Below are positions 4,355 through 34,535 of a stretch of 64,000 nt of DNA, piece by piece (the stretch's first letter is position 1; every line of letters starts with the position of its first letter). Made by a program: the position numbers and the translations under genes. The DNA comes from Thalassomonas actiniarum (GTDB lineage: Bacteria; Pseudomonadota; Gammaproteobacteria; Enterobacterales; Alteromonadaceae), in assembly GCF_000948975.2 (NCBI RefSeq), contig NZ_CP059735.1, positions 4,278,001 through 4,342,000 on the forward strand, given 5' to 3'. Under the pieces are notes generated by a model. It did not search any database. It saw only the letters and a list, made by a program, of their open reading frames with translations, and was not told the DNA's origin.

Positions 4355-6673
4355 CTACTCCTGAGACACCCAAACATTCGCTTCGATTTTATCGGCCATG
4401 GTCGAATGACTATCCACCCATAGATAACCGTCCGCCCATAGATAGCCGTCCGCCCATAAATAGCCGTCTGCCCATAAATAACCGTCCGCCCACAAATAGC
4501 CGTCCGCCCACAGATAACCGTCCACCCACAGATAACCGTCTTGCCAGAGATAACCGCTGCCTTCAAGGCCGCTGATATAATATTGACCGTTTTCATCCTG
4601 ATTGGCCCGTCCGCCAAAATGGCTGGTACCGGCCAGATCGGCATCAACATCCAATCCCTGATTGGCACAGCCGGCGGCAGAAGAATAAACCGCCTGGTAG
4701 GCATCAATTAAGCCGCTCCCCTGCTGGAAGATACTGACCGCCAGCTGGCCCTGTCCATTGACGGCAGGCTGGCCGGCACTGAGCAGTCGGCATTTGAGCT
4801 CATCGGGTGATAAATTGACATCTTGCTCAAGTACCAGTGCGGCAATACCGGAGACTATCGCCGCGGCCTGGGAAGTACCGGACATCATAAACCAGCCGAT
4901 ACCGTCAAAGAATTCGGGGTGATCCTGTGCCAGCTTACCATCACTGGGCATAAAGCCGAGAATATGCCCGCCGGGCGCCACCAGCTCAGGTTTGACAAAA
5001 CCTTCATAGGTTGGGCCTGCGGCAGAGAAACGGGCTAGGAAATCATCGCTGCTGTTGGTCACCGAATAATTATCCGATACCGCACCAACCGTCATCACAT
5101 AAGGCACATTACCCGGCACCCCTATCGTCATGGCATCGGGACCGGTATTACCGGCGGAGGCAACAACAAAGATGCCCGCCTGCCAGGCTTTCATCACCGC
5201 CTGATTTAATAAATCATCCCAGTAGTGAGACTGAACTGACGTACTTAACGACAGGTTTAAAATACGGATATTGTATTTTTCCTTGTTGGCGATCACAAAA
5301 TCTATGCCGCGGATCACATCGGCATAAGTGCCCTGGCCGTTAGTGTCCAGGGCTTTTACCGCCACCAGGTTGGCATTGGGGGCAATGCCGTTATAACTGT
5401 TTTCATATTCGCCGGTCATGGCATCTACCTTAGGCAGGGAGCGGACGATAATCGAACTGATATGGCTGCCGTGACCGTTGCCGTCCTCCAGATAACCGTG
5501 ACGCTCAGCGTCAAATTTATCAAATATATGAGTATCGACTAAGGTATCGCTGATCGCATTATAAAAAGCCTTGATGCGGTTGCCGCCGTTGACCTTATAT
5601 TGCATCGACCAGTCGAAATCTCCCCGCAGACCCGAGTCAACTACGGCAACGGTCACACCATCGCCGGTGATCCCCTGTTCATGTAAGATATCCGCCTTGA
5701 CCATAGCGGGATAAAAACTGTCCCGGTAGGCATCATTAAGGCTTTGGATCAAACTACCCTGCCCCTCGATAAAAGCTTTGCTGGAATCATCCAGGGCAAA
5801 AGTTAAGTTAATCTGGTATAAACCGGCATCCGTTGCCGGTTCATGGGTAAACACCAGGCCATATTCGGTGATTTTATTTTTGCTCAAATCAGCATGAGTC
5901 CCCAACATTTGTGAGGTTAAGGTCAGGTACATATACACACCGTCACTGGTGGCGGTTAAATTACCGGTATCCACACCGCCGGAGTTGTTCACGGTAAACT
6001 GAGCCAGAGGGCCATTTACTATCGGCCAGGCCAACTCGATTGAGCTTAAAGCAAAATTGTTGTTTGCCCGGTTGACCAGTTTCCAGCGGGTATAGTTGGC
6101 ATCAAAAGTTAAAAAGGGCTCGGCATCGATATAACTCGATACCGGGGCATTAAGAATAGGAATACTATTACCGCCGCCCTTGCCACCGCCCTTGCCATTC
6201 CCTTTTCCCCCGCCCTTACCATTTTTGCTTGCGGTAATCGCCAGGCTTTTACTGTTTTTTTGAATGCGGATAATGCCCGGGGTTTGCTTTAAGCGCTTGC
6301 GGGTCACATTATCCAGTGTCACCGCCAGGGCATTAATCGCTTCAAGCTTATGGCTGACCTCCAGATTAAACTGCTCGGCTATCGCCATCAGGATCTCCAT
6401 ACTTTGCCCTTGAATCAGGTAAGAATGGTGAGTATTCGCGGATAAAACCTCGGGAAAGGCCTCTAGCCGGGTATTTACTACCGGCTGATTTTCAGTTATC
6501 ACCGTAGGCAGGTTTTCCGCTTCCCCGTATCTTCCATCCCCGGCATTGCTGATATCGAACAGTAATAAGCCAAAGCCAATTAAAGTAATTCCTCCGATAA
6601 TGCTGGTCAGTCTATGCTTAATAATCACATTTAGCGCAATAAGCCAAGTAGTCTTCACCAAAGAAAAATTCAT
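4355..6673 (-). CDS. S8 subtilase 1 with WADGY hexad repeats
   Basis: A 772-residue secreted or anchored subtilisin-like protease. An N-terminal membrane segment (about 26-40) is followed by an I9-like propeptide (about 84-147, SYLIQG to IRIQKNSK) and a Gly/Lys linker (151-168). A beta-rich domain of about 150 residues then precedes the peptidase S8 domain (about 320-665). The triad is visible: D346 (VVDSG), H401 (GHGSH) and S601 (SGTSQAAA), with oxyanion N509 (SAGN). After a conserved CANQGLDVDADL segment come eight hexads of type GYLWAD (707-754) and the C-terminal tail VWVSQE. The start is fixed by a strong GGAGGTG 7 bases upstream. A sigma54-like element and 12-bp repeats lie upstream. 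Family function is endoproteolysis outside the cytoplasm; the substrate is unknown. Confidence 0.93.
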   Translation of the reverse strand: MNFSLVKTTWLIALNVIIKHRLTSIIGGITLIGFGLLLFDISNAGDGRYGEAENLPTVITENQPVVNTRLEAFPEVLSANTHHSYLIQGQSMEILMAIAEQFNLEVSHKLEAINALAVTLDNVTRKRLKQTPGIIRIQKNSKSLAITASKNGKGGGKGNGKGGGKGGGNSIPILNAPVSSYIDAEPFLTFDANYTRWKLVNRANNNFALSSIELAWPIVNGPLAQFTVNNSGGVDTGNLTATSDGVYMYLTLTSQMLGTHADLSKNKITEYGLVFTHEPATDAGLYQINLTFALDDSSKAFIEGQGSLIQSLNDAYRDSFYPAMVKADILHEQGITGDGVTVAVVDSGLRGDFDWSMQYKVNGGNRIKAFYNAISDTLVDTHIFDKFDAERHGYLEDGNGHGSHISSIIVRSLPKVDAMTGEYENSYNGIAPNANLVAVKALDTNGQGTYADVIRGIDFVIANKEKYNIRILNLSLSTSVQSHYWDDLLNQAVMKAWQAGIFVVASAGNTGPDAMTIGVPGNVPYVMTVGAVSDNYSVTNSSDDFLARFSAAGPTYEGFVKPELVAPGGHILGFMPSDGKLAQDHPEFFDGIGWFMMSGTSQAAAIVSGIAALVLEQDVNLSPDELKCRLLSAGQPAVNGQGQLAVSIFQQGSGLIDAYQAVYSSAAGCANQGLDVDADLAGTSHFGGRANQDENGQYYISGLEGSGYLWQDGYLWVDGYLWADGYLWADGYLWADGYLWADGYLWADGYLWVDSHSTMADKIEANVWVSQE
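4412..4555 (-). repeat. 18-bp coding tandem repeat, 8 units (GYLW[AVQ]D)
   Basis: Eight in-frame 18-bp units encode GYLWQD, GYLWVD, five GYLWAD and a final GYLWVD. Near-identity at DNA level suggests recent slippage or unequal exchange. Confidence 0.95.
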
Positions 6674-6711
6674 ACTTCCACCTCCATTGAATTTTCATCA
6701 GCAAAGGTTCT

Positions 6712-6728
6712 ACACTTTTTATGCCAAT
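6712..6728 (-). promoter_or_regulatory. Sigma54-like -24/-12 promoter of subtilase 1
   Basis: Minus strand TTGGCATAAAAAGTGTA: GG and GT are separated by exactly 10 bases, matching the TGGCA(N8)TTGC spacing except for T in place of C in the -12 GC. The same 17-mer pattern occurs before the other intact family transcription units. It lies 39 bp before the start codon. Confidence 0.6.
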
Positions 6729-6850
6729 AACTGTAAGCCATAGCAAAAAAATGATAGTAACTTGATTTAAAAGACTATTCACCTTTATTTGACTCAAAAT
6801 CTCTGTTGCCAGTCACGAATAAACACTAAATCGAACAAAGAATAAAAAAA

Positions 6851-6909
6851 TGACGAAAGAAGTGGCGAAAGAAGTGACGAAAACGAATGGAACTGAAACA
6901 TACGGCGAA
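6851..6909 (-). promoter_or_regulatory. 12-bp-period repeats, putative activator site of subtilase 1
   Basis: On the plus strand three 12-bp units, TGACGAAAGAAG, TGGCGAAAGAAG and TGACGAAAACGA, run from 6851 to 6886, with a further GGCGAA at 6904-6909. In gene sense the core is TTTCG[TC]CA. The repeats lie about 120-160 bp upstream of the -24 element, the usual distance for an enhancer-binding protein. Confidence 0.6.
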
Positions 6910-7024
6910 AATAAAACATGCACTTTTAACAAGCAATAAACATCAAACAATAGCGCAACACGGCAGAGCCCCGCCAATCGACGGGATTGCTCATCCACTC
7001 ATTGCTGACAAGAAATGAAGGAGA

Positions 7025-9153
7025 TTACTCCTGATCTACCCAGGAGTTCCCCCCCATAACACCGGAGGCAATTTCATTCCAAAATGAGCTTTCGTTCCGG
7101 AACGAGCCCTCATTCCAAAAAGATCCCTCATACCAGATACTGCCTTCATTCCACATCGAACCTTCATTCCACAAACTGCCATCGGGGGCTGGCAGGGCAA
7201 AACGGCCGTTTTCATCGATCAGCGCCGGCCCCTGAAAGTGTCGGCTGCCTTCAAGATCGGCATCAATATCTAATCCCTGGTTGGCACAGCCGGAAACATC
7301 ACTCTTGCTGGCGGCATAAATATCCATTAATCCCGCCCCCTGCTGGAACGGCGAATAACGCAATAAACCATTCTCTGCCACCGCCGACCTAGCACTGTGC
7401 ATTAGCCGGCATTTAACATCATCCGGGCTAAACCCAGGTTCGGCTTGCAATAATAACGCGACGGCGCCACTGAACACGGCAACTGCCTGTGAGGTGCCCG
7501 ACATCACAAAAAACTTTTTACCGTCACTAAAGCCCGGATATTTGTTGGCAATGGTTGCCTGGCTGTGCATCATACCCAGCAGGTATCCCCCCGGCGCCAA
7601 CAAATCAGGCTTGACAAAAGCCTCCAGGGTCGGCCCCGACGCTGATCGCATAGGGCACGTTTCCGGGGACAGTAACAGAACCCGGCACCGGCCCGGTATT
7701 GCCGGCTGAAGTCACCGCCACAATACCCGCCTGCCAAGCCTTCATCACCGCCTGATTCAGAAGATCATCCCAATAATAGGGACGGGACTGTGCGCCATAT
7801 GACAAATTCAATACCCGGAGATTGAGCGCCTCAGCATTGTTCACAACATAATCGATACCGGCAATAACATCCATATAATTCCCCCCTAAATCATCAAAGG
7901 CGCACACTAACACCAGGCCAGCCTCAGGTGCCATGCCCTGGGCATTGACCTGCCTCGTACACCTTGTCAGGTCAAACTCAGAGCTGGCATAACTGCTGGC
8001 GATAACACTGGCAACATGGCTGCCGTGACCATGCAGATCCAGCACATCTGTTCTACCATCATCTAAAAGGTTTAAGGTATCAATGATCCTGTTATCATCT
8101 TCAGCGCCTATACTTTCATTGCTAAAACTGCCGGTATCAAGTATGGCTATATTCATCCCTTGCCCGGTGCTCCCCTGCTGATGCAAGTTATTCGCACCGG
8201 TTTGCATGGCCAGATAAGCAGACATATGGCCGGGATCTTTATAAAAGTGCACATTATCTATGGCGAAATAACCCCGATCGGCACTTTTCGGCGCACTTGC
8301 CAGCTCAAAACGCAACTGGTCGCCATGTCGGCATAACGGCTGACATGATAACGTCGCTTGCCCTTTAACCCGCTCTTTTTCGGGGTCAGGGTATCAAAAT
8401 TAACGGTATCGCCGCTAAACAGCACTTTCAATTTTTCATCCTGTGCCAACCCCGCCAGTTCAAAATCAAAGGTGAAGCATTAAAGACTCGGTACTTCTCG
8501 GCAGTGACACCTGACGACTGATCCAGCCGCCCCCTGGTTAGGGGTAAGGACCAGAAAGCCGTTATCAATACAGATATGGCCATTGTCGGCGCCATCACTA
8601 TTATCCGGCTCCCACTCCCACCATTTGCTTTCCCAGCGATCGACACCGTCATGATTGTCAAAACTGATACCGCTAAAAGTATCGAGGACATCAAAGTCCG
8701 GTCCACAGCTGTTCGGGGAAGGGAGTGCAACACTTTCTTTACTTCCGTCTTTACCCGCTAAAGCCAGTTGCTGATCAGGATAAAAAACCAGTTCCGGGTT
8801 GGCTTGCTCCAGTGTGGCTTTTTCCCTCAGGGTAAGCTCAGTACCTACGGCATTGATAATACCCAGGGTTTTAAGCACAGGTAACTCACTTTGCCTGAGC
8901 AAGCGGTTAAAAATTCAACATTTTTTCCCTGCACCAAGTAACGTTGGCTTGGCTTTACTTCACTACCGGGCCCGACAGCACTGAAATAGCCAAACCTAAC
9001 CAGCTCATTGTTGAGCTGTTGTATCAGTTCTTTGCCAAGCCCTGGCTTAAACGATAAAACAGGATAAAACTTGTCAGCAGGATCACCAGTAAGCCGATAA
9101 CCCGGGCAAAGCGATATTTTCGATAGAAAATGTTCAAGATAAAAAAGTTTCAT
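7025..9153 (-). pseudogene. Decayed S8 subtilase 2 (WNEGS type)
   Basis: Consecutive segments in different frames together spell one family member. They run from the start and propeptide (9153 to about 8890, ending RYLVQGKNVEFLT), through the jelly-roll-like middle domain (about 8890-8480 and 8449-8290), to the S8 core (8315 to about 7650) and the S8 end with hexads (7651-7025). Frame changes are needed near 8890, 8470 and 8290. Near 7650 about 24 residues between SVGA and SASGPT are missing. The triad motifs (ILDTG, GHGSH, SGTSQ) and SAGN survive in separate fragments. The six hexads are irregular (SLWNEG, SIWYEG, SFRNES) and the tail is SWVDQE. It begins 5 bp after the subtilase 3 stop, so it was probably the second cistron of that operon. 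Assembly indels could mimic some of the lesions, but not the deletion. Confidence 0.85.
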
Positions 9154-9158
9154 TACTC

Positions 9159-11441
9159 TTACTCCTGTGATACCCAGACATTCGAAGATATGCGACTATC
9201 CGCCCAGACATAACCGTCCGCCCAGACATAACCGTCTGCCCAGACATAACCGTCCGCCCAGACATAGCCATCTGCCCAGACATAGCCATCTGCCCAGACA
9301 TAGCCATCCGCCCAGACATAGCCATCTGCCCAGACATAGCCATCCGCCCAGACATAACCGTCTGCCCAGACATAACCGTCCGCCCAGACATAACCCGTGC
9401 CCTCAAGGCCGCTGATATAAAAGTCGCCGTTTTCATGCTGACGGCTGCGCCCGCCAAAATGCTGCTGCCCGGCAATATCGGCATCAATATCCAATCCCTG
9501 GTTGGCACAACCAAAAGCCAGGTTGTTTATCGCCTTAGTGACATCAATTAAACCGCTGCCCTGCTGAAAAATACTGACGGCCAACTGACCTTGCTCGTCA
9601 AGTGCCGGATTGGCGCTCATCATCAAGCGGCATTTCACTTCATCCGGGGTCAGCTCCGGATTATGCTCCAACATCAGGGCCACACTGCCCGAGACGACCG
9701 CCGCCGCCTGGGAAGTACCCGACATCATGAACCAGCGGTTGAGATCATGATATTCAGGGTGCGTGGTTGCCAGATAGGAATTTTTATTCATGCTGCCGAG
9801 AATATGCCCTCCGGGCGCCATCACTTCCGGTTTAACAAAGCCTTCATAGGTAGGCCCTGATGATGAAAAACTTACCAGCTTGTCATCACTGATATCTGTC
9901 GGGGTGAAACTATCCGTCATCGCCCCGACGGTGATCACATAAGGGACATTGCCCGGTACGCCGATTGACATAGGATCCGGGCCATTATTGCCGGCAGACG
10001 CCACCACCACTATGCCTGCGGCCCAGGCGCGCATCACCGCCTGATTTAATGGATCCTGCCAGTAATGGGATTTTACCGGGGCACTGAGGGAAAGGTTGAG
10101 CACCCGGATATTATATTTATTTTTGTTGTTAATAATAAAGTCGATGCCGCGTATGACATCGGCATAACTGCCATTACCGTTATCGTCAATAGCTTTGATC
10201 ACTAACAGCCGGGCATTAGGGGCGATACCGTTAAATGAGCCGCTGCTCTCCCCGCTAGTGATATCCAGGCTTTCCTTTGAATGGACAATCACCGAAGCGA
10301 TATGGGCACCGTGACCAAAACCGTCATCGTCGGCAATACCGGAACGGACAAGGTCGCCAAAAGTGTTGCTATCCAGCAAAGCCGTGTCGGTCAATTTGTC
10401 ACCAACCGCGTCATAAACCGCTGCCAGGCGGTTGTTACCGGCGATATCAAACTGCAAATTGTTATCCCGGGATAAACCGCTGTCGATCACCGCAATGGTG
10501 ACGCCGGCACCGGTAAGCCCGTTGCGGTGCGCCTTATCGGCTGTCACCACAGTAGGAAAAAAGGTATCCCGGTCACGCCCCTGTAACATCATCCCTTCAC
10601 CAAAAGTGAATTGGCCATAGCTGCCATCACTCAAGTGAAAGCGAACTTGATATTGGCTCATGTTATTCGCGGGCCTGTGCTCAAAAGTCCATTGAAAATA
10701 TTTATCTACGCCCCCTCTCAGTGCTTTTTGTTTCTTTAAAGCCGTACCCGGGATCACGCTGGTGTAATATAAACCATCGGCACTGAGTTCACCCGGCTCG
10801 GCCACACCGTTAGTTAAAGGCGTGTCTAATACTGAAAACTTGGTCAAGCGGCCATTTTTCTTCGGCCAGCTCATTTCAATACGCTCGATCTCTAACTTAT
10901 GATCACCGGTATTACGTACGCCTAAACTCATCTTTTTATGAATTAACGTCAGAAAAGGTTCTGTTTTCAGATAATCTGAAACATTGTCGCTTACCTCAGT
11001 TGCTGTCTCTGCCAACCCGCTAAATCCCAGCATAACTGAGCTACCATCATCATCTGCAGAGTCGCCGCCTCCCTTGACCTTACCACTCACGTGCACCTGG
11101 CTATTAAGGGTTAAGGCTGTGACTTGCGGCAGATGTTTCAGTTGTAAAAACTGGCTATGGGTGAGATCTGCAACCAGGCTGTTAATGATTGCCAGCTCAT
11201 GGCTGACAGCCAATTGCAATTGCCCTGCTACCGTCAGCAGTTCGGTCATACTGCTCCCCTGAATAATAAAGGATGCCTGTCTGGCGGCTGCTGCTGAAGG
11301 TAAAAAGCCAGCTCCCTCCTGAGGTTGTTGATTATTTATTGCCAGCATATACAACAACACGATGAGCAAAAAAACGCCAATGCCTCCTCTCAAAGCAGAT
11401 ATGTTAAAAATCAACCGTTTACTGCTATCAAATAATTCCAT
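9159..11441 (-). CDS. S8 subtilase 3 with WADGY hexad repeats
   Basis: 760 residues, same plan as subtilase 1: N-terminal membrane segment (about 20-36), propeptide (about 57-117, SFIIQGSSM to ALTLNSQ), beta-rich middle domain (about 155-290), S8 domain with D320 (VIDSG), H377 (GHGAH), oxyanion N484 (SAGN) and S577 (SGTSQAAA). The linker CANQGLDIDAD is followed by eleven exact GYVWAD hexads (683-748) and the tail NVWVSQE. It carries the longest WADGY array of the window. Its own promoter and 12-bp repeats lie upstream; the decayed subtilase 2 follows directly and probably shared its transcript. Expected to act outside the cytoplasm as an endoprotease; substrate unknown. Confidence 0.93.
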   Translation of the reverse strand: MELFDSSKRLIFNISALRGGIGVFLLIVLLYMLAINNQQPQEGAGFLPSAAAARQASFIIQGSSMTELLTVAGQLQLAVSHELAIINSLVADLTHSQFLQLKHLPQVTALTLNSQVHVSGKVKGGGDSADDDGSSVMLGFSGLAETATEVSDNVSDYLKTEPFLTLIHKKMSLGVRNTGDHKLEIERIEMSWPKKNGRLTKFSVLDTPLTNGVAEPGELSADGLYYTSVIPGTALKKQKALRGGVDKYFQWTFEHRPANNMSQYQVRFHLSDGSYGQFTFGEGMMLQGRDRDTFFPTVVTADKAHRNGLTGAGVTIAVIDSGLSRDNNLQFDIAGNNRLAAVYDAVGDKLTDTALLDSNTFGDLVRSGIADDDGFGHGAHIASVIVHSKESLDITSGESSGSFNGIAPNARLLVIKAIDDNGNGSYADVIRGIDFIINNKNKYNIRVLNLSLSAPVKSHYWQDPLNQAVMRAWAAGIVVVASAGNNGPDPMSIGVPGNVPYVITVGAMTDSFTPTDISDDKLVSFSSSGPTYEGFVKPEVMAPGGHILGSMNKNSYLATTHPEYHDLNRWFMMSGTSQAAAVVSGSVALMLEHNPELTPDEVKCRLMMSANPALDEQGQLAVSIFQQGSGLIDVTKAINNLAFGCANQGLDIDADIAGQQHFGGRSRQHENGDFYISGLEGTGYVWADGYVWADGYVWADGYVWADGYVWADGYVWADGYVWADGYVWADGYVWADGYVWADGYVWADSRISSNVWVSQE
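9198..9395 (-). repeat. 18-bp coding tandem repeat, 11 units (GYVWAD)
   Basis: Eleven in-frame units all encode GYVWAD; they differ only at synonymous third positions. Confidence 0.95.
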
Positions 11442-11669: not shown

Positions 11670-11980
11670 ATTTAAATACGAATGAAAATCAAAAGCTTAC
11701 TCTAGACATTTAAAAAATTACGCTTAATCAAATGTAATAACAGTCACTCATTAGCAGGAGCAAAATTTAATAAGACATGCAAGAGAATTGTGGGTTAGCT
11801 CTCGAATCTCAGGAAAAATATCAAAGAGGAGGGAAAAGTACGGCACATGCTTAAAACTAAATCAGAAAAAACAAATAAGCCCGAAAATTAATTCCGTTAA
11901 CACTTACCGCACTTTACTGCTTTCATATACTCCTTTAAATCCGGAACAACTGGCCTGCACGGACCATTACCGACAAAAAC
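11670..11980. other. Intergenic stretch
   Basis: AT-rich region between the subtilase 3 control region and the subtilase 4 stop codon. I see no gene and no convincing terminator; an open frame starting at 11788 on the plus strand is an antisense reading of the hexad repeats. Confidence 0.4.
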
Positions 11981-14218
11981 TTACTCTTGGCCAACCCAGA
12001 CATTTGGCTGTATGCTGCCACTGGCCTGGATATTACCATCGACCCATAAATAGCCATCAGCCCATAAATAGCCATCAGCCCATAAATAGCCGTCAGCCCA
12101 TAAATAACCGTCGGCCCACAAATAACCGTCGGCCCATAAATAACCATCGGCCCACAAATAACCATCAGCCCATAAGTAGCCACTGCCTTCGATACCGTCA
12201 ATATAATAATTGCCATTGGCATCCTGGTTGGCCCGACCGCCAAAATGACTGGTGCCGGCAAGATCGGCATCAATATCCAGCCCCTGGTTGGCACAGGCAG
12301 TTGCCGAAGAATAAACCGCTTCATAGGCATCAATTAAGCCGCTGCCCTGCTGGAAAACACTTACCGCCAGCTCCCCCTGAGCATTTAATACCGGGTTGCC
12401 GGCACTGATCAAGCGGCATTTCACTTCATCCGGCGTTAAAGTAGGATCTTGCTCCAAAACCAGGGCAACAACACCCGAGACCACCGCCGCCGCCTGTGAA
12501 GTCCCCGACATCATAAACCAGCCCTGCCCATCAGAAAAATTGGGATAATTACCCGGTATAAAGGCACCCGGGGGCATATAACCGAGAATATGGCCGCCGG
12601 GAGCAACCAGCTCAGGTTTAACAAACCCTTCATAAGTAGGACCCGCCGCAGAAAAAGTGGCCAGAAAATCATCGCTGTTATTGGTCACAGAGTAATTATC
12701 AGATACCGCCCCGACGGTAACCACATAAGGCACATTGCCCGGTACCCCTATGGTCATGGCATCCGGCCCGCTATTACCGGCAGATGCAACCACAACAATG
12801 CCCGCCTGCCAGGCACGCATGACCGCCTGGTTGAGGAAATCATCCCAGTAATGGGATTGCACCCCCGCACTGAGTGACATATTCAATACCCGGATGTTAT
12901 ACAGGTCTTTGTTGGCGATAACAAAGTCTATGCCGCGGATCACATTGGCGTAAGTGCCCTGGCCATTGCTGTCGAGGGCTTTCACCGAAACCAGGTTAAC
13001 ATTAGGAGCGATACCGTTATAAGCCCCTGTAAATTCGCCGGTATTGATATCCTGTTCAGGTAATGACCTGGCAATAATGGAGCTGATATGAGTGCCGTGT
13101 CCATGACCGTCCTGTAACAAACTCCCCTGCTCGGCATCGTTAAGATCAAATACAGCGGTATCGATCAAGGTATCATCTATGGCATTATAAAAAGCTTTGA
13201 TGCGATTACCCCCTTGTGCCAGATATTGTATTGACCATTCGGGATCGGCACGCAAACCTGTGTCTATCACCGCTACTGTCACCCCGAGCCCGGTGATCCC
13301 TTGCTGTTGTAAAATATCGGCATTGACCATGCCAAGATAAAAAGTATCGCGGTAAACACTGTTGTCGTTCGGCAACAAGGTTCCCTGCCCGTCGGTATAT
13401 TCTTTTACCGAGGCATCTCCGGCAAAGGTCAATTTAAGCTGGTATTGAGTGGAGGCAGTTGAAGGGACATTTTGAAAGAACAAATCATAGCTAAAAGTAT
13501 GGTTTGCTGCCAGGGAGGCATCAGTGCCCAGCATAGCCGGGGTTAACGTCAGATACATATGGGTGCTGTCACTGCTTGGGGTTAAAGCAGAAGTATCCAG
13601 CTGCAGACCATTGCTGGTACTAAACTGCATTAAGGTCCCGTTTTCCAGCGGCCAGGCCAAATCAATCGAACTTAAAGCAAGGCTGATCCCGGCACGGTTA
13701 ATCACTTTCCAGCTGCTGTTGTTACCACTGAAGATTAAAAAGGGTTCGCCGCCGATATTTTCAGCCTCCGACGCCCCTAAAAACAGCCCTTTCGGGTTTC
13801 CGCCTTTATCGCCACCTTTGCCACTGCCTTTAGCCGTAACTTTCAGGTTTTTACTGTTTTTCTGCATTCGGATAATACCCGGCTGCTGCTGTAACTGCTT
13901 ATAGGTCGCCAAGTCCATGGTGACAGCCAGGGCATTGATCGAACTAAGCTTATGGCTCACATCGAGCTTGAACCTGGCAGCAATTGCCATGAGCGCTTCC
14001 AGACTGTGACCCTGGATAAGATAGGAGTCCTTGCCCGTATTGTCGGGTATAGGCACTTTCGTCAGGTAGGGTGTAGGCGGGCTTGCTTTGAAATGTTTTC
14101 CCGAACTGGTATCAAAAAGTAACAGGGCGCAACCGAGCAGGCAAATAAGAGCAACAGCAAAGAGTAATTTATTGTTTTTAATCTGTAACAACAGATTTTT
14201 ATCAAGTGAAAAAAACAT
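11981..14218 (-). CDS. S8 subtilase 4 with WADGY hexad repeats
   Basis: 745 residues from the ATG at 14218, chosen because AAGGTGG precedes it and because the upstream promoter element would fall inside a longer reading (to 14353). The layout is N-terminal membrane segment (LLFAVALICLLGCALLLF), propeptide (SYLIQGHS to IRMQKNSK), Gly/Lys linker, beta-rich middle domain and S8 domain. The triad is D319, H374 and S574 with SAGN. Eight hexads follow (seven GYLWAD, one GYLWVD), then NVWVGQE. It closely resembles subtilase 1 in sequence, for example the S8 core HYWDD-LNQAVM, indicating recent duplication. The substrate is unknown. Confidence 0.92.
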   Translation of the reverse strand: MFFSLDKNLLLQIKNNKLLFAVALICLLGCALLLFDTSSGKHFKASPPTPYLTKVPIPDNTGKDSYLIQGHSLEALMAIAARFKLDVSHKLSSINALAVTMDLATYKQLQQQPGIIRMQKNSKNLKVTAKGSGKGGDKGGNPKGLFLGASEAENIGGEPFLIFSGNNSSWKVINRAGISLALSSIDLAWPLENGTLMQFSTSNGLQLDTSALTPSSDSTHMYLTLTPAMLGTDASLAANHTFSYDLFFQNVPSTASTQYQLKLTFAGDASVKEYTDGQGTLLPNDNSVYRDTFYLGMVNADILQQQGITGLGVTVAVIDTGLRADPEWSIQYLAQGGNRIKAFYNAIDDTLIDTAVFDLNDAEQGSLLQDGHGHGTHISSIIARSLPEQDINTGEFTGAYNGIAPNVNLVSVKALDSNGQGTYANVIRGIDFVIANKDLYNIRVLNMSLSAGVQSHYWDDFLNQAVMRAWQAGIVVVASAGNSGPDAMTIGVPGNVPYVVTVGAVSDNYSVTNNSDDFLATFSAAGPTYEGFVKPELVAPGGHILGYMPPGAFIPGNYPNFSDGQGWFMMSGTSQAAAVVSGVVALVLEQDPTLTPDEVKCRLISAGNPVLNAQGELAVSVFQQGSGLIDAYEAVYSSATACANQGLDIDADLAGTSHFGGRANQDANGNYYIDGIEGSGYLWADGYLWADGYLWADGYLWADGYLWADGYLWADGYLWADGYLWVDGNIQASGSIQPNVWVGQE
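12038..12181 (-). repeat. 18-bp coding tandem repeat, 8 units (GYLWAD)
   Basis: Eight in-frame 18-bp units in the 3' end of subtilase 4; the last encodes GYLWVD. Confidence 0.95.
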
Positions 14219-14256
14219 ACTAACCACCTTTATTGAGTTTACGTCTCCATGGCTAA

Positions 14257-14273
14257 TACACGCTTTATGCCAG
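14257..14273 (-). promoter_or_regulatory. Sigma54-like -24/-12 promoter of subtilase 4
   Basis: Minus strand CTGGCATAAAGCGTGTA, GG-N10-GT, 38 bp before the start codon; the same pattern as the sister promoters. Confidence 0.55.
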
Positions 14274-14397
14274 TAAGGAATAAAAACAGTGGTTTTGGCA
14301 ATAAAAAAACTAAGTAGTTGATATTTAATAAGATAGAATGCTTTCTCGGGCAAAATAAGTTTACGGTATGCTGACCTTACCGGCTGGCCAACCCGGC

Positions 14398-14440: not shown

Positions 14441-14641
14441 TTATGATTGTCCAGTGAAACTTTTATAGAAAAAAATGATAACGTCAACCATGAAAAAGAT
14501 GGCCAAGATAACAAAATAGCAGATAAATAAGCCGGTTTATCCAGGACATGATGGCATCATCTGCTTGCCAACACAGTGCCCGAAACTGACATAGCCGCAG
14601 CCTGTTGTGTTTTAACATTAGCCTTCCCGCTTGATTAAACC

Positions 14642-14694
14642 GCCTAGCCCGGGCATTAAAAAGCCTTGCCGGCTCTTTAATGCCCGGACTAGGC
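14642..14694 (-). terminator. Long-stem terminator of subtilase 5
   Basis: An inverted repeat with a stem of about 24 bp and few mismatches (14642-14665 with 14671-14694) around the loop TTGCC, starting 5 bp after the subtilase 5 stop. The stem contains GCCCGGGCATTAAA; no strong T run follows on the minus strand. Confidence 0.65.
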
Positions 14695-14699
14695 ACCCG

Positions 14700-17087
14700 T
14701 TATTCTTGTACAGGTATCTGTTGCAGGCTCATAGGGAGCACAGTTTCATTCCACAGAGAACCTTCATTCCAGATAAAGCCCTCGTTCCAGATAAAACCCT
14801 CGTTCCAGATAGAACCTTCGTTCCAGATAGAACCTTCGTTCCAGATAGAACCCTCGTTCCAGATAGAACCCTCGTTCCAGATAGAACCCTCGTTCCAGAT
14901 AGAGCCCTCGTTCCAGATAGAACCTTCGTTCCAGATAGAGCCCTCGTTCCAGATAGAGCCCTCGTTCCAAATCGACCCCTGGTGCCAAATACTGCCATCG
15001 CTCCTGATGATATAGAACTCCCCCAGCTCATTTGCACGTACCGGCCCGGTATAATGAACAGAGCCGGCAAGATCCGCCTCAATATCCAAGCCCTGATTAG
15101 CACAGGCGTAGCTGGTATCGCTCAGGGCTGCAGCCAGATTTAAACTACCGGCTCCCTGACGCATAGGGCTATAGGCCAGGTTATTGTCATCCAGCGTTGC
15201 CAGCTTAGCACTGTGCATCAAGCGACATTTTATATCGTCCGGTTGCAGGCTCGGATCTTGCTGTAATAACAAGGCTACCGCCCCGCTAACCACAGCTGCC
15301 GCCTGGCTGGTTCCCGACATCACCATAAAATGCTCATTATCCCGGTCGAGAAATTTTGGGTATAGCTGGCTAAGATAGCTGTCCGGCACGGCATAGGACA
15401 GCATATGCCCGCCGGGAGCAACAATTTCAGGCTTGATAAAACCTTCATATGTGGGGCCAGCAGAAGAAAACCGGGTAATTCTGTCATCGCTGGTCAGTGA
15501 CTTGGTATAATTGTTGGTGATCGCCCCGACACTGATGATATAAGGGAGGTTGGCGGGTACAGTAATGGTCATGGGAGCCGGACCGGTATTGCCCGCAGAG
15601 GCGACCACAGTAACTCCCGCCTGCCAAAGTTTCATTACCGCCTGGTTGACCGGATCATCCCAATAATTGGACTGTACCTTACCGCCAAAGGATAAATTTA
15701 ACACCCTGATATTATATTGCTCCCGATTGGTTAACACCCAGTCAAAGGCGGCAATCACATCACCGTAGCTGGCCATGCCATTGGCATCAAATGCCTTAAC
15801 ACTGATCACATCCGCAGCAGGCGCTACCCCCAACTGCAAGCTACCGACGCACTTATTAGGCCCGGAAAAGTCACCAGTGGCTATACCAATAACATGGGAA
15901 CCATGGCCATGCTGGTCGTTATAACGAGTATCGGCATTGGTATCTGCAATCACGCTATGGCGAATAATTTGCTTAACGTCGGTTTCGATCATACCGGCAT
16001 TCGTATCCACTTCTCCAACTGCCCCTACGCCGCCAGTGCCCGTCATAGCATCCAGATAGCCTAGATATAAGCCGGTATCGATAAAAGCAATACCCACCCC
16101 TGCCCCGTCAAGCTCTTCGGACAAAGTCAAACCAGCATGTTGTCTGGCATAATTTCCGGGATGTTCGGTATCAACCACCAGCTGGACATTATCGATAAAA
16201 AAAGCCGACTCTCTGCTGGTAAAGCCCCCGGGAAACCGAAAGCCTAAGGTTTTATATTTCTGGTGATCGCCGGTTAAGTCGATAGATATTCTTCGTTTTA
16301 CCGCCAGGGCATCACCGGTAAAGCTTTGCAAAACCTTAACGCTGCCGGTTTCGGTAATAAGATAAAGCTGCATCACGTCATTCACCGTGGCACTCGCACT
16401 GGCCTGGAGATCAAACCCCAACTCTAAATAGGTTTCATTGGCAACGCTAAAGTCCCGTTGGATCTGGGGGGCGGCCAGATTAAAAGGGCCACGGATTTCC
16501 AATGCCTGGTTGTTGATCTTGATATTGCCGCTCAGGGCACCGCTGATCATGCCGCTATTGAGATCCTGCTCCAGCCAGTCACCATCAAAAGGCAGTGTGC
16601 CGTCATTATTGCTAAAGACCCCTGAGCTGAAACTGTCTAACATGGAAAATTCATGGCAGGTTTGCGGCGCCACCTCCTCAAGATTACTACCTCCTGTCGC
16701 TAAAACCATTCTCTGATCGATATAAATGCGTTTCACCTGAGGCTGGCGCTGCAGCCAGTTTTTTTGCTGCTTATTTAATACCACGCTTAACGCACTGATG
16801 ATCGCCAGCTCCCGCTTTATTTCAATATTTTCTTTTAACAGCAGGGCCTTAAGCTCATTTAAATCTCCCTGCACCAGATAGCTGCGCCCCTCCCAGGCCT
16901 TCTCCTGAACAAGTTGTGCCGGGACCGTTGGTGATACTGCTGCCCCTTGAGGCGCTTCGGAGTCAGTTAACACATGCTCTGTTTTTTGTTGCAATGCGAA
17001 TAAAATAAAGGCGCCGATCAGCAGAAAAGCCAAGAGAATTTTAACAATAAATAAATGTTCAAAAGCTCTGGATACATTTGCTTTCAT
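14700..17087 (-). CDS. S8 subtilase 5 with WNEGS hexad repeats
   Basis: 795 residues from the ATG at 17087, which overlaps the stop of the upstream gene (TAATG), a sign of coupled translation. N-terminal membrane segment (about 13-33), propeptide (about 68-130, SYLVQGDLN to IYIDQRM), then a jelly-roll-like domain (about 145-305, starting CHEFSMLDSFSSG) unlike that of the WADGY proteases. The S8 domain has D337 (FIDTG), H395 (GHGSH), oxyanion N500 (SAGN) and S594 (SGTSQAAA). The linker CANQGLDIEADL leads to fourteen hexads, mostly GSIWNE (698-781), and the tail IPVQE, a reduced form of the family ending. It has the largest hexad array in the window. The substrate is unknown. Confidence 0.93.
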   Translation of the reverse strand: MKANVSRAFEHLFIVKILLAFLLIGAFILFALQQKTEHVLTDSEAPQGAAVSPTVPAQLVQEKAWEGRSYLVQGDLNELKALLLKENIEIKRELAIISALSVVLNKQQKNWLQRQPQVKRIYIDQRMVLATGGSNLEEVAPQTCHEFSMLDSFSSGVFSNNDGTLPFDGDWLEQDLNSGMISGALSGNIKINNQALEIRGPFNLAAPQIQRDFSVANETYLELGFDLQASASATVNDVMQLYLITETGSVKVLQSFTGDALAVKRRISIDLTGDHQKYKTLGFRFPGGFTSRESAFFIDNVQLVVDTEHPGNYARQHAGLTLSEELDGAGVGIAFIDTGLYLGYLDAMTGTGGVGAVGEVDTNAGMIETDVKQIIRHSVIADTNADTRYNDQHGHGSHVIGIATGDFSGPNKCVGSLQLGVAPAADVISVKAFDANGMASYGDVIAAFDWVLTNREQYNIRVLNLSFGGKVQSNYWDDPVNQAVMKLWQAGVTVVASAGNTGPAPMTITVPANLPYIISVGAITNNYTKSLTSDDRITRFSSAGPTYEGFIKPEIVAPGGHMLSYAVPDSYLSQLYPKFLDRDNEHFMVMSGTSQAAAVVSGAVALLLQQDPSLQPDDIKCRLMHSAKLATLDDNNLAYSPMRQGAGSLNLAAALSDTSYACANQGLDIEADLAGSVHYTGPVRANELGEFYIIRSDGSIWHQGSIWNEGSIWNEGSIWNEGSIWNEGSIWNEGSIWNEGSIWNEGSIWNEGSIWNEGSIWNEGFIWNEGFIWNEGSLWNETVLPMSLQQIPVQE
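14745..14996 (-). repeat. 18-bp coding tandem repeat, 14 units (GSIWNE)
   Basis: Fourteen in-frame 18-bp units: GSIWHQ, ten GSIWNE, two GFIWNE and one GSLWNE. The antisense strand is also open across the array, which produces spurious reading frames. Confidence 0.95.
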
Positions 17088-17581
17088 TATAGTGACTCCC
17101 GGATCAGGCCAAAATTTGCTTCCAAATGCTTGTTTTCCCATAAATATCCCGCATTCAATGCGGAAAAGGCGTTTTCGGTAAAACAGCTCTGAGTGTCCGT
17201 ATTACCCAGGCATGCCTGATTTCCGACGTATTCACGAAAATATTCCTTTCCTGCCAAAAAGCTTAAAGGTAAAAGGCCCCACTGAGCAGAAACACCGGCT
17301 TCTGCGCTATGCTGCGCTGGCATCGGAAATACACTATCCGTCAGCTTCTGACCAAGCCCCAACGCCCATGCTGGCCTTTGTTCGTTCTGCACGTTTTTCA
17401 TTTCCAAAGACACTACAGGATGATGCGAGAACTTATCAGCTTCATCCTGATCATATTGCACATGCTTGATCACAAAATAGCAAAGGGCCAGAAACCCGGC
17501 ACTGAAAAAAAAGACCTCTATCAAACTTCTGAGCATACAAGTATTCGATGTCGATTGTTTGTTGTTAACAGAAAACTGCAT
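17087..17581 (-). CDS. Small membrane protein coupled to subtilase 5
   Basis: 164 residues, not recognised as a known family. One N-terminal membrane segment (about 19-42, LIEVFFFSAGFLALCYFVI) and a probably extracytoplasmic rest with two cysteines close together (CLGNTDTQSC). Near the C-terminus GYLWEN resembles one unit of the hexads found in the proteases. The stop TAA overlaps the ATG of subtilase 5 by one base, so the two are almost certainly co-translated. AAGGCGG precedes the start and the sigma54-like element of this operon lies 39 bp upstream. A role as partner, chaperone or inhibitor of the protease is possible but not shown by the sequence. Confidence 0.75.
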   Translation of the reverse strand: MQFSVNNKQSTSNTCMLRSLIEVFFFSAGFLALCYFVIKHVQYDQDEADKFSHHPVVSLEMKNVQNEQRPAWALGLGQKLTDSVFPMPAQHSAEAGVSAQWGLLPLSFLAGKEYFREYVGNQACLGNTDTQSCFTENAFSALNAGYLWENKHLEANFGLIRESL

Positions 17582-28341: not shown

Positions 28342-28364
28342 GATTATCTCACAGAGATGAATAA

Positions 28365-30485: not shown

Positions 30486-30700
30486 TGTGTATAATTCCTG
30501 ATTTTATCCTGCTTAATGGCAATAAAGGAGTAATAAGCGGACTATTTTTATCTGTGGATCAGTTTTCCGGCAAAATCATACCAGCTTGCCGGGTCTAAGG
30601 GTATGTTTGTTCTTTTAATTAAGGTAGGGAATTGAGATAAAGCTGCAGGAAAACAGGCTCAAATTTGCCTCAGGTCAAAATTGCGCCGGATAAAAGGCAT
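30486..30700. other. Intergenic stretch
   Basis: Leader of the DPP III gene (minus strand). No gene or clear signal seen. Confidence 0.3.
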
Positions 30701-30723
30701 AAAAGGGGCTGAACAGCAGCCCC
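30701..30723 (-). terminator. Terminator of the HupE/anchor gene pair
   Basis: GGGGCTG/CAGCCCC stem with loop AACAG and a short T run on the minus strand, 18 bp after the stop at 30741. Confidence 0.7.
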
Positions 30724-30740
30724 CTGCTTAAAGAAAATCA

Positions 30741-31259: not shown

Positions 31260-31407
31260 AACATATCCTTAAAAATACTTGTTTTACTTCAACAATAAAT
31301 AATGGGCTGAAGTAATGAATAAAATTTATCTCATCATCAAGATGAGCTTAACCGGTAATAACTGAATATCCCTTGGCTCGGCCAATATCAGTTAAGATTG
31401 GCTAACA

Positions 31408-32103
31408 TCAGCTAACAAAAAAGCCCGTCAACTGAAACCCTGTCAGCATCAAACCACAGCTCATCAGCAGCGTATTGCTTGCCAGTGAAAAACGAAAATA
31501 ACTGCTGTGCCTGCGCCAGAAACTCATCCCGATCAGCACCAGTGCCAGCGCCATAAACTGCCCGAGCTCAACCCCTAAATTAAAGGCCAGCATATTGGCG
31601 ACCAGGCCCTGCTCCGGCAGGTTAAACTCCTGAATTTTAGTGGCTAAGCCAAATCCGTGGAACAGGCCAAAAATCATCACCGCCGCCCTGGGGTTGGGCT
31701 GAAAACCCAGCAGGGCCTTAAAGCCCCCGATATTATCAAAGCCTTTATAAACCACGGACAAGCCGATAATGGCATCGATTAAGTAAGGATTGACGGCGAT
31801 ATTGCCGAGCACGCCGTATAATAAGGTAATGCTGTGCCCTAAGGTAAACAGGCTGACATAAAGTAAAATATCTTTACTTCTAAACAGGAAAAAAATCACA
31901 CCGAATAAAAACAGCAGATGGTCGTAACCTGTCACCATATGCTTCGCCCCGATGTAAATAAAAGGGATAATGGATATCCCCTGATTCTGGGTTAAAAATT
32001 GTTTCGTGTCTTCATCGACGCCATGGGCAAACAGTGAAAACGAGGCACATAAGGCGGTAAGCACCAATAAAGCCTTAAGGCCTCTCGCCATAAATTGGCT
32101 CAT
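31408..32103 (-). CDS. HupE/UreJ family membrane protein
   Basis: 231 residues, N-terminal signal-like helix and about six further membrane segments. Signature residues are GYDHLLFLFGV, the HSITL stretch and the LFHGFGLATKI motif with conserved His and Asp. Relatives are nickel or cobalt permeases, but many HupE-like proteins outside hydrogenase and urease loci have no proven metal; no hydrogenase or urease is seen here. An ATG at 32091 is an alternative start. Confidence 0.82.
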   Translation of the reverse strand: MSQFMARGLKALLVLTALCASFSLFAHGVDEDTKQFLTQNQGISIIPFIYIGAKHMVTGYDHLLFLFGVIFFLFRSKDILLYVSLFTLGHSITLLYGVLGNIAVNPYLIDAIIGLSVVYKGFDNIGGFKALLGFQPNPRAAVMIFGLFHGFGLATKIQEFNLPEQGLVANMLAFNLGVELGQFMALALVLIGMSFWRRHSSYFRFSLASNTLLMSCGLMLTGFQLTGFFVS

Positions 32104-32618
32104 GTAAAATACTCCATATTAAAATAATGCCGATGTTTTGCTACACAGCTTCATCTTTAGCCGCACCTTATCTTGGTTTAAACAAAAAGTGAAACCGACA
32201 CCAAAAGCATCGCATGAGCCCCTTGGGATACTCGAGTGAAAATAACAGGTTACCGGTAAAAACACGGCACAAAAAAAATACCGGCAAACAAGCCAATACG
32301 GCTCTCGACTGCGCTAAGCGCTTTCAGCTCCTGCCATTAACCAAGTATTTTAACCTCAACCGGGTGAGCAAAATAAAAGCCGTTATAGTAAAGCAGATAT
32401 CAAGAAAAAGCCATTATCCTACGCTGCTATCACCGCCGCGAACAGTCACCAACGAAAATTTTGGCGAGCTTTCTCCCGACCACCAGATCAAAAATATCTA
32501 TTTAAAATCAAATAGACTCCAACAAAACCATGAGTACCTGCCCGAGCGGAGTAAAAAATGGCGCCCGCCATACCGGGTGAATTCACCGATAAATCCGACA
32601 ATGAAACAACTGGCGAAA
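32104..32618. other. Intergenic stretch upstream of subtilase 6
   Basis: Long non-coding region between the divergent hupE-like and subtilase 6 genes. An open frame of 153 codons (32214-32675) runs into the repeat block of the subtilase promoter and has low-complexity, basic content, so I treat it as chance. Confidence 0.4.
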
Positions 32619-32654
32619 ACTTCGCGAGTTCTTTCGCCAAACTTTTCAAAACAT
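32619..32654 (+). promoter_or_regulatory. 12-bp-period repeats upstream of subtilase 6
   Basis: Three 12-bp units ACTTCGCGAGTT, CTTTCGCCAAAC and TTTTCAAAACAT, with the core C exactly 12 bp apart (32623, 32635, 32647). The core TTTCGCCA matches the gene-sense core of subtilase 1. The block lies 65-100 bp upstream of the -24 element, closer than in the cluster. Confidence 0.5.
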
Positions 32655-32718
32655 AAAGCGAAGAAGATTAACTAAAAAATAATGTCATAAAAATCAAACG
32701 TTAAAAGATTTTTTTCAA

Positions 32719-32735
32719 TTGGCACAGGAAATGCC
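32719..32735 (+). promoter_or_regulatory. Sigma54 -24/-12 promoter of subtilase 6
   Basis: TTGGCACAGGAAATGCC: GG-N10-GC, a near-canonical sigma54 element (TGGCAC then TGC). It is the best match among the family promoters and supports reading the others the same way. It lies 46 bp before the start codon. Confidence 0.78.
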
Positions 32736-32780
32736 TTATTAGCGCCAGGTTTACTTAAAATATATTCGCGGAGATGTTTA

Positions 32781-34535
32781 ATGAAATTTTGCAAAATGAA
32801 ACGAATAACGTTAAGGGCAATAATAGGCACCACAGCTTTGGCTCTGGTCTTAACCATGACGGCAATCATAGGATATCATTCAAGTCCCGCACAAGTAGAT
32901 CCCCTCTCTGCCAATGAACGCTTACCGGCAAATAAGCACAGGGAAGCCGCCAAAAGCTATATACTTCAGGGTGATACCCTGGAAGCCATGACAACTCAGG
33001 TAGAGCAGGTCGGGGGCAAAATATCACATCAACTGGCCATTATTGACGCCGTCGGCGCCAGGTTAACCCCAAGCCAGTTAGCACAAATTACCGCCACAAC
33101 ACAGCTAACAGTTTTTGCCGATGCTGCCCTGACCACCAGCAGTTTTTCCACCTCCACCCATATTGCCCGCCAAACCGGGGCAGACCAGCTTCACCAACTG
33201 GGCATCACAGGACAAGGAGTAACCATTGCCTTTATTGACAGCGGTATTTCGGTGAAAACAAGAAAAGGCCGTTTTTTAAGGTTAGACAGCCAGGGGCAAG
33301 AGCGTATCCTGGCCCAATATAACGCCGAAACCAGCAATATGTATTTTGTCCATAAAAACTCAGATGATCACGGCCACGGCAGCCATGTTGCCGGCATAGC
33401 CCTGAGCAGCGTACTTGATGAAAACGGCGAATATAACGGTATCGCCCCCGATGCCAACCTGGTGTCGGTCAGGGCCTTTGATGAAAATGGCCGGGGTACC
33501 TATGTTAAAGTTATCAACGGCCTGGATTGGATAGTCGCTAATAAAGACACCTATAATATCAAAGTATTAAACCTCTCTTTTGGCGCCTTACCCCGCTCTT
33601 ATTACTGGGATGATCCCCTGAACCAGGCAGTAATGCGGGCATGGCAGGCGGGCATAGTGGTGGTAACATCCGCCGGCAACCTGGGTCCGGACCCCATGAC
33701 CGTCAGCGTACCCGGCAATGTGCCTTATGTGATCACTGTCGGGGCGCTGACCGATCATTATACCCCTGACGATCAAAGCGATGACCGCATCACCAGCTTT
33801 TCCGCTTCCGGTCCGACCCATGCCGGTTTTATCAAACCGGATTTAATCGCCTGGGGCGGCCATATGATGGGAAAAATACACGATACCTATTTGCCAACCC
33901 TGGCATTACAACACCCGGAAGCGTTACTGGGGGAAAGTTATTTCGAAATATCCGGTACTTCACAGGCATCCGCCGTGGTTGCCGGCATTGTCGCCTTAAT
34001 GTTGCAAAATGATCCCAGCCTGACCCCGGATGATGTGAAATGCCGTTTAATGACTTCTGCGCAGATGGCTGTCGCCGCCGACGGCAAAGCCGCCTACAGT
34101 CCTTTTACCCAGGGAGCCGGTAAAGTCAACGCCTGGGGCGCGGTGCAAAGCACGGCGTCGGGTTGTGCCAACATTGGCCTGGATATCACGGCAGACCTTG
34201 ACGGCAATCAACACTTTCAAGGGCCTGCCCGGGTCGATGAAAACGATAATTTCTACCTGCTTGATGCTAACGGCAATATCTGGAACGAAGGCTCTATGTG
34301 GAACGAAGGCTCATTCTGGAACGAGGGAACAGTATGGAATGAAGGTTCGCTGTGGAACCAAGGCTCAGTGTGGAATGAAGGTTCATTATGGAACGAAGGT
34401 TCTGTGTGGAATGAAGGAGCGATCTGGAACGAAGGCTCAGTGTGGAATGAAGGAGTGATCTGGAATGAAGGCTCAGTATGGAACGAAGGCTTATCTGAAA
34501 ATATTGATGTTAATGCCTGGGTAGATCAGGAATGA
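32781..34535 (+). CDS. S8 subtilase 6, compact, with WNEGS hexad repeats
   Basis: 584 residues, the shortest family member. N-terminal membrane segment (about 12-32), propeptide (about 59-113, SYILQGDTL to TVFADA), then directly the S8 domain, without the middle domain of the others. D153 (FIDSG), H199 (GHGSH), oxyanion N300 (SAGN) and S394 (SGTSQASA) are in place. The linker CANIGLDITADLDG leads to twelve varied hexads (498-569; GSVWNE, GSLWNE, GAIWNE and others) and the tail AWVDQE. GGAG precedes the start. It lies 15 kb from the cluster on the opposite strand but keeps the family promoter layout. Confidence 0.93.
   Translation: MKFCKMKRITLRAIIGTTALALVLTMTAIIGYHSSPAQVDPLSANERLPANKHREAAKSYILQGDTLEAMTTQVEQVGGKISHQLAIIDAVGARLTPSQLAQITATTQLTVFADAALTTSSFSTSTHIARQTGADQLHQLGITGQGVTIAFIDSGISVKTRKGRFLRLDSQGQERILAQYNAETSNMYFVHKNSDDHGHGSHVAGIALSSVLDENGEYNGIAPDANLVSVRAFDENGRGTYVKVINGLDWIVANKDTYNIKVLNLSFGALPRSYYWDDPLNQAVMRAWQAGIVVVTSAGNLGPDPMTVSVPGNVPYVITVGALTDHYTPDDQSDDRITSFSASGPTHAGFIKPDLIAWGGHMMGKIHDTYLPTLALQHPEALLGESYFEISGTSQASAVVAGIVALMLQNDPSLTPDDVKCRLMTSAQMAVAADGKAAYSPFTQGAGKVNAWGAVQSTASGCANIGLDITADLDGNQHFQGPARVDENDNFYLLDANGNIWNEGSMWNEGSFWNEGTVWNEGSLWNQGSVWNEGSLWNEGSVWNEGAIWNEGSVWNEGVIWNEGSVWNEGLSENIDVNAWVDQE
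34272..34487 (+). repeat. 18-bp coding tandem repeat, 12 units (G-x-[VILMF]-W-N-E)
   Basis: Twelve in-frame 18-bp units, more diverged than those in subtilases 3 and 5; Trp, Asn, Glu/Gln and Gly are constant while the second and third positions vary. Confidence 0.95.

Follow-up and report, generated by a model that had tools for sequence, protein, structure and literature searches.

The six subtilase genes (p1 to p6, p2 being broken) found in a 64,000-nucleotide stretch of the Thalassomonas actiniarum genome (contig NZ_CP059735.1, positions 4,278,001 to 4,342,000; hereafter, the window) belong to a distinct family of S8 proteases, named here S8W, whose genes recur beside genes for propeller sensors with Reg_prop and Y_Y_Y domains. 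The pairing of both genes is strongly supported, and there is moderate support for specificity within the pairs. S8W and the sensor could form one signalling module in which the repeat tail of the protease is read by the sensor, a proposal that falls slightly short of an even chance. The first-pass annotation of this DNA had regarded the tail, with its fixed WVxQE-type ending, as a sorting, anchoring or recognition signal. Since the protease array runs into a cluster of propeller-sensor and cyclic diguanylate (c-di-GMP) genes, the interpretation moves from sorting towards signalling.

Reg_prop sensors are common, and their known ligands are, to our knowledge, glycans. The pairing with S8W would give this receptor class a defined protein partner, and would offer a new coupling of extracytoplasmic proteolysis to a c-di-GMP or phosphorelay output. 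No description of the repeat tail or of a subtilase-propeller pairing was found in literature titles and the starts of abstracts, with subscription journals and preprints outside this coverage.

Pairing of S8W genes with propeller sensors

Clustering of the genes around 77 named S8W loci identified signalling genes as the main recurrent neighbours. These include proteins of 1000-1500 residues that combine Reg_prop and Y_Y_Y with an output domain (GGDEF, EAL or kinase), as well as REC-GGDEF-EAL or sigma-54 proteins. Pfam recognised the Reg_prop architecture in eight sensors, including those of loci L051, L138 (two), L139, L061 and L147, and the remaining sensors were identified by phmmer labels. 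Most have a hydrophobic start, a membrane segment after Y_Y_Y, or both, and some are without a clear membrane segment by simple hydropathy. A sensor is present at 39 of the 77 loci, in 34 cases within 500 bp of the protease gene, while 16 loci could not be evaluated.

The two genes also occur together at the level of whole genomes. Among 196 genomes of the same bacterial family, S8W was found in 68 and the sensor in 75, with both in 66, S8W only in two, the sensor only in nine and neither in 119 (Fisher P 1.7e-39, a value that ignores relatedness). S8W is a recurrent protein partner of the sensor, the two being present together in about a third of these genomes and also seen in other phyla. 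In this search the best five sensor candidates per genome were scored, and the thresholds for S8W, sensor and site calls throughout are the authors' own choice. In a sample of 59 relatives, which overlaps with the 196, the same 13 genomes have S8W (expect value, E, cut-off 1e-40) and the sensor (E 1e-100), and the other 46 have neither. A control S8 family, present in 14 of the 59 genomes, shares five of them with S8W, and none of its 18 matches lies near a sensor match, as judged by eye. Scanning whole genomes with the 24-residue Pfam Reg_prop model was uninformative, as it returned nothing above the strict cut-off, control genomes included.

S8W and sensor lie no more than 6 kb apart in 62 of the 68 genomes; of the other six, one (G031) shows the pair on closer reading, two (G403 and G448) pair with a sensor that scores below the cut-off, and three (G434, G455 and G474) have the two genes on different contigs. 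Outside the genus, 67 of 76 S8W matches have a sensor within 6 kb. The sensor gene lies downstream on the same strand in 43 of 50 pairs, and the pair was present in all 20 further loci from the same bacterial family, 18 of which had been chosen in the knowledge of both matches. More than one S8W match occurs in eleven genomes outside the genus, eight of which have two separate loci, each with its own sensor. In the window's own genome, the single-copy member L014 (in L139) is likewise followed by its own sensor.

Evidence for a shared descent of protease and sensor

On a sensor-domain tree with 68 entries, 53 of them linked to S8W and 15 not, the S8W-linked label requires five changes, compared with 13.8 in shuffles; none of 500 shuffles was as low, a result that is helped by near-copies. 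Distances between S8W proteins correlate with those between their sensors over 49 pairs (r 0.68, above all 2000 permutations), to which shared species history contributes. When this history was removed by a within-genome swap test in five two-locus genomes, 81 of 115 comparisons were consistent with pair specificity. The sensor link was also considered as a clade feature of S8W, and the S8W tree rejects it: the link is not clustered there (20 changes versus 17.7 shuffled), which is read as scattered loss or dispersal.

Repeat units of the tail

In the 79 S8W clusters that carry the end motif described below, consecutive tryptophans (W) are spaced by six residues in 613 cases, followed by a spacing of 12 in 47. 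Period 6 dominates near the query, and most members of the window's genome have 9 to 17 W per tail, with up to 29 in the tail of one relative. The hexapeptide period that had first been attributed to all members does not hold as a universal feature: L014, from the same genome, has 11-residue units, and relatives show main periods of 11, 12, 13, 16, 17 and 18. The units differ greatly from locus to locus (for example, SQLWGNVRFNND, HLWPNA, EEAFIW and NAIIWPPGGSSKDLKT), and W may be preceded by G, P, S or T. Very long tails were observed at L233 6163-9156 (29 W, main spacing 17) and L237 1641-4334 (23 W, main spacing 13), and the L234 tail has FYDKE repeats with no W inside them. With its varied pre-W residue and periods of 11-18, the tail appears to be poorly suited to a classical hexapeptide left-handed helix, and the Pfam model of the left-handed beta-helix hexapeptide gave no match at E 0.1, although repeat filters can hide weak ones.

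Copies within a protein mostly resemble one another. For 30 of the 80 proteins, their four-fold synonymous sites show an identity of 0.46 or less and are thus saturated (the random-usage expectation averages 0.37 over 79 proteins), whereas the amino-acid identity per position is 0.72-0.85 within these proteins and 0.21-0.50 between proteins; W is excluded from these figures, being 1 by construction. The combination of saturated synonymous sites and high amino-acid identity indicates that, in these 30 proteins, selection holds the copies to the protein's own unit. Recent duplication as a general cause of uniform repeats fails for the same 30, and fits L018, L083 and L094, whose synonymous sites are near-identical.

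Such uniformity admits a stronger version of the proposal, regarded as rather unlikely, in which the tandem tail is itself the signal, its locus-specific copies being recognised by their own sensor, whether they stay together as a multivalent ligand or are first released. The diversification of units between loci and their uniformity inside each would then reflect, with the same reserve, a drift in ligand-receptor specificity. If this were true, a bacterial protease would encode the ligand of its own receptor. An improbable rival takes the tail as a multi-copy peptide precursor, from which cleaved repeats are released as short peptides and sensed by the cognate propeller as an autocrine or population signal. 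It would account for the purifying selection that acts on near-identical tandem copies in many of the proteins, for units that diverge strongly between loci with main periods from 6 to 18, and for the eight two-locus genomes in which each locus has its sensor. However, no obvious cleavage site separates the copies, the widespread end motif is left unexplained, and a repetitive fold would likewise keep copies alike.

The end motif

The endings of the six window proteins are those first described, namely WVSQE in p1 and p3, WVDQE in p2 and p6, WVGQE in p4 and PVQE in p5. In the 7.5 Mb genome, the DNA pattern for WVxQE followed by a stop matches at five places, all of them in the window, with no match for the reversed control. 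The family had been counted as six members; the whole-genome search raises this to ten, p2 included, and the four additional proteins end in APVQE, WVDQQ, WVSHE and WVEQQ.

For a wider view, 193 S8W reading frames were reduced to 130 distinct ones and to 97 clusters at 75% identity, with source records that include Gammaproteobacteria, Acidobacteria and Chloroflexota. A W[VIAS]x[QHPDN][EQ] end is found in 79 of the 97 clusters, of which 57 have I/V at position -8, 64 have N at -7, 74 have V at -4, 62 have Q at -2 and 69 have E at -1, the counts at -5, -4, -2 and -1 being partly circular, since the same pattern defines the class. Among the 18 clusters without the motif, five retain the final QE, near misses include WVDFE, WVDAY, WVSDD and WVPAE, one is the broken-p2 piece, and the others lost the end. 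This set is biased to p6-like tails, as it derives mostly from the best 80 of 345 relatives by p6 similarity, tail included. In a second sample of twenty loci from the window's own bacterial family (L218-L237, two of which duplicate L057 and L091), the motif is present in seven. Conservation of the ending outside the genus, on which the initial claim had been staked beforehand, is thus seen in both samples. The WVxQE-type end is old and widespread beyond genus and phylum, and it is not universal; given the 7 of 20 and the bias of the first set, it was rejected as a universal mark of the family.

The W preceding the final W lies 13 residues away in 45 of the 79 motif clusters and 10 residues away in nine. 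The predominant gap of 13 identifies the end motif as an element separate from the hexads, and the view that it is one more repeat was rejected because the spacing is mostly not a multiple of six. As had been anticipated, the tail matches no known secretion domain, in that no Pfam or NCBIfam family was found at E 0.1 in the tails of the window proteins, the lone database match being a sub-threshold WXXGXW in p4. This includes the cargo C-terminal domain of the type IX secretion system (T9SS), which has no Pfam or NCBIfam match at that threshold in the window proteins. The lack of a tail-family match, together with wide occurrence, makes a conserved element a reasonable reading.

A sorting or outer-membrane anchoring tag carried on a beta-solenoid tail, which is close to what the first-pass annotation proposed, would explain why a C-terminal element of conserved sequence follows a variable repeat stack. 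We regard it as highly unlikely. A shared sorting tag is expected on other cargo as well, so that the lack of a clear carrier outside S8W among 274 class-drawn genomes, searched with a tail-only profile, counts against it. Two matches (G184 and G075) are short contig-end pieces whose S8 core would fall outside the available sequence, and those in G249 and G262 look like low-complexity artefacts. The 274 genomes include that of the window, and only seven of them have any match, which says little on rare tails. Furthermore, inspection by eye of the recurrent neighbour clusters singled out no gene for sorting or transport, the tail has no secretion-domain match, and the end is absent from many S8W members. 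A general sorting tag was therefore set back as a candidate, clear tail-profile matches being confined to S8W proteins.

A proposed protease-sensor signalling module

The repeat tail is specific to the family, non-catalytic and divergent between loci, while a sensor usually travels along with the protease; from this we infer that it is the repeats that the sensor recognises. S8W would be exported by its N-terminal segment and would remain within reach of the sensor, whose Reg_prop propellers and Y_Y_Y domain would be displayed on the outer face of the inner membrane, connected through one membrane segment to a cytoplasmic GGDEF, EAL or histidine kinase output. The two proteins would meet in the periplasm, where the cognate propeller may contact the repeat tail, and the terminal WVxQE element would be an older, dispensable cap or anchor. 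The c-di-GMP or phosphorelay output would be set by tail binding, or by the ending of that binding once the protease is engaged or the tail cut; in clusters that have a sigma-54 regulator, the signal would also feed back on protease expression through it. Export is probable, as the strongest hydrophobic stretch is N-terminal in nine genes checked, weakly so in L014.

Several observations weigh against this proposal. With regard to the tail, the WVxQE end is absent in the sensor-linked proteases of L052, L057 and L091 and in both of L145, and 13 of the 20 sensor-linked proteases in L218-L237 are without the end motif; as so many paired proteases have no such end, it is not required for pairing and is not an essential contact. 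With regard to the pairing, 22 of the 77 loci in the wide set have no sensor despite at least 3 kb of downstream sequence, and four of the ten S8W genes in the window's genome, including p6, have no propeller sensor in the stretches examined. Nearest neighbours on the protease and sensor sides agree in only 16 of 49 pairs, the swap test is only moderate, with one of the five genomes at 2 of 10, and the absence of clustering of the sensor link on the S8W tree points the same way. A strong sigma-54-like site is absent before most S8W genes. Finally, an active diguanylate cyclase motif (GGDEF or GGEEF) was not found in the two sensors examined in the window's genome, whose sites are degenerate (RWGEGSF in the sensor at L138 9462-12809 and RWSEDTF in that at L139 5139-8309), which makes cyclase activity there doubtful. 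Their output may instead pass through a kinase to two REC proteins. The canonical RWGGDEF is retained in several other genera, e.g., at L051.

The evidence on the catalytic side bears on a tentative alternative, a possible one on balance, in which the protease acts upstream and the sensor detects peptides released from its substrates, the tail being a stalk, cap or localisation element that is not read. This model follows the sugar sensors that, in Bacteroides, have glycan-degrading enzymes as neighbours. In its favour, the S8 catalytic residues are invariant, and among solved structures the sensor is closest to Bacteroides two-component sensors. In PMC5121618, the propellers of BT4663 are described as the site of disaccharide binding. 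A second, tail-less subtilase adjoins the pair in L061 and has clustered relatives in further loci. The absence of the end motif from 13 of 20 sensor-linked proteases shifts the balance slightly from the tail-reading proposal towards product sensing. Product sensing leaves unexplained, however, why no clear non-S8 carrier of the tail was found, and why units are uniform within and different between many proteins.

Sigma-54-like sites

With a sigma-54 -24/-12 consensus and a score of at least 11.5 defining a strong site, such sites precede 11 of 91 S8W genes (counted as clusters) versus 3 of 611 other genes (P 2.6e-8). The 611 controls were drawn from the window up to 40 kb, L049-L125 and L138-L157, with near-copies kept and possible false frames among them, and the S8W set also draws on shorter loci. 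The three control matches concern one sensor gene (L117) and two genes for histidine kinases with HTH_18 from sister species (L139 and L154), all of them in S8W loci next to S8W genes. In the window, a sigma-54-type -24/-12 promoter-like site, TTGGCACAGGAAATGCC, lies at 32719-32735 on the plus strand, about 62 bases before p6, and is kept in a sister species save for the last base.

These sites, together with the REC-GGDEF-sigma54 or GGDEF-sigma54 regulators of some clusters, are what could be expected if S8W were a mere output gene of the sensor system, the pairing reflecting co-regulation of proteins that are not in contact. This explanation has little probability in our judgement, since co-regulation alone does not require a co-occurrence over 196 genomes that goes far beyond chance. 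In addition, p1 and p3 have no sigma-54-like site, and only weak ones occur at p2, p4 and the gene preceding p5, on which account sigma-54 control of the array was rejected.

Genes of the window

All six S8 genes were confirmed. Genes p1 to p5 form one row on the minus strand, and p6 stands isolated on the plus strand. The row includes p1 (4355-6673; YLWADG-type repeats, tail at about 4358-4660), the broken p2 (7025-8315; WNEG-type), with remnants in three frames upstream towards 9050 and an intact relative in a sister species (L055), p3 (9159-11441; YVWADG repeats, tail at about 9162-9500), p4 (11981-14353; YLWADG repeats, tail at about 11984-12286) and p5 (14700-17141; SIWNEG repeats). Off the array, p6 (32781-34535, +) has WNEG repeats and a tail at about 34176-34532. 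Its closest named relative, with 92% identity, is from Thalassomonas sp. RHCl1, and the search in a sister species recovered no more than a stop-containing fragment of its relative (G003:C1:4189676-4190197). The ATG codons near 14218 for p4 and near 17087 for p5 seem likelier starts than those of the open reading frames (ORFs). The stop of a 164-residue protein without a Pfam match (17087-17581, -) overlaps the likely p5 start (TAATG), and in three sister species the relatives of p5 are preceded by relatives of this protein (36, 49 and 80% identity). Long ORFs at 11788-12408 and 14631-15143, both on the plus strand, are antisense to the p4 and p5 tails and look like by-products of the repeats rather than genes. 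As the start chosen was the first after a stop, some overlaps and lengths cannot be trusted; the longest-ORF gene caller also overlooked some genes beneath antisense frames (e.g., in L160).

The five intact proteins all present the architecture originally described, with an N-terminal hydrophobic stretch, S8 core, linker and W-repeat tail, and by eye also a propeptide-like stretch. In p5 the linker shows HY instead of HF. The window proteins match Peptidase S8 (PF00082) with Pfam E values from 1.1e-13 (the p2 piece) to 2.3e-48, and fall short of the cut-off for the type VII secretion mycosin (TIGR03921; best score 130.9 bits, cut-off 278.75). The catalytic residues of p6 (D153, H199, N300 and S394) occupy columns that are invariant in the nine intact members of the genome and in a 59-row alignment. 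A stand-alone protein of 109 residues (L015 2789-3118, -), also returned by the whole-genome search, is similar to the S8W propeptide alone and is perhaps a free inhibitor of S8W proteases.

Upstream in coordinates, the array is separated from the sensors by a gene for a REC-GGDEF-sigma54 AAA+ regulator with a sub-threshold PAS (904-4005, -; Pfam). The N-terminal part of the first propeller sensor (2-808, -; Reg_prop, Y_Y_Y and degenerate GGDEF) follows, the rest lying beyond the window (L138 9462-12809). Past this sensor, outside the window, there are a Reg_prop/Y_Y_Y/HisKA_2 kinase and then a REC-PAS-GGDEF-EAL protein. A further recurrent gene of single-copy loci encodes a hybrid histidine kinase with HTH_18 and is convergent with that of the sensor (L139 8556-11558, -). 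The tail-less subtilase (Pfam) beside the pair in L061 has 394 residues and clusters with genes of L083, L105, L115 and L118; a gene of about 610 residues in L148, L149 and L151 has a start that resembles that of the L118 gene by eye. A propeller sensor at L184 2664-10423, which carries GGDEF and EAL and has no link to S8W, adjoins a 935-residue gene that resembles an M16-type peptidase. The Chloroflexota S8W at L123 4988-10290 ends in WSPQE and has no propeller sensor in the stretch examined; its neighbours are a histidine kinase by phmmer label, at a distance of 169 bp, and, on the opposite flank, a gene that by eye resembles a response regulator.

Comparison with known systems

By profile, the best solved match of S8W is 3afg, a subtilisin-like serine protease, which is alike in the catalytic core and the propeptide-like N-terminal region. 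The match stops at profile position 445 of 570 and omits the repeat tail and end motif. The sensors linked to S8W share Reg_prop and Y_Y_Y with the Bacteroides two-component sensors 4a2l, 4a2m, 3v9f and 3ott, solved relatives that have two seven-bladed propellers. The Bacteroides Reg_prop sensors are known from glycan loci; in contrast, the S8W-linked ones have outputs that include GGDEF and EAL, and one protease family as their recurrent neighbour. A periplasmic protease tied to c-di-GMP signalling is also the feature that likens the proposed module to LapD-LapG and similar c-di-GMP systems, although LapG belongs to the cysteine proteases and its receptor has no propeller.

The remaining comparison is with PorZ, which consists of two propellers and a C-terminal domain that has been compared with Y_Y_Y, and which acts with PorU on cargo bearing conserved C-terminal domains (PMC5121618, in the part considered here). 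The PorZ propeller model matches one sensor (L061) with 30.1 bits, above a cut-off of 27. Unlike the sensors linked to S8W, PorZ is a surface protein, and the same part of that paper describes no cytoplasmic output for it (PMC5121618). The S8W tails, for their part, show no T9SS domain match. With these differences, PorZ-PorU appears to be the nearest precedent found for a propeller protein that works with a protein-processing enzyme.

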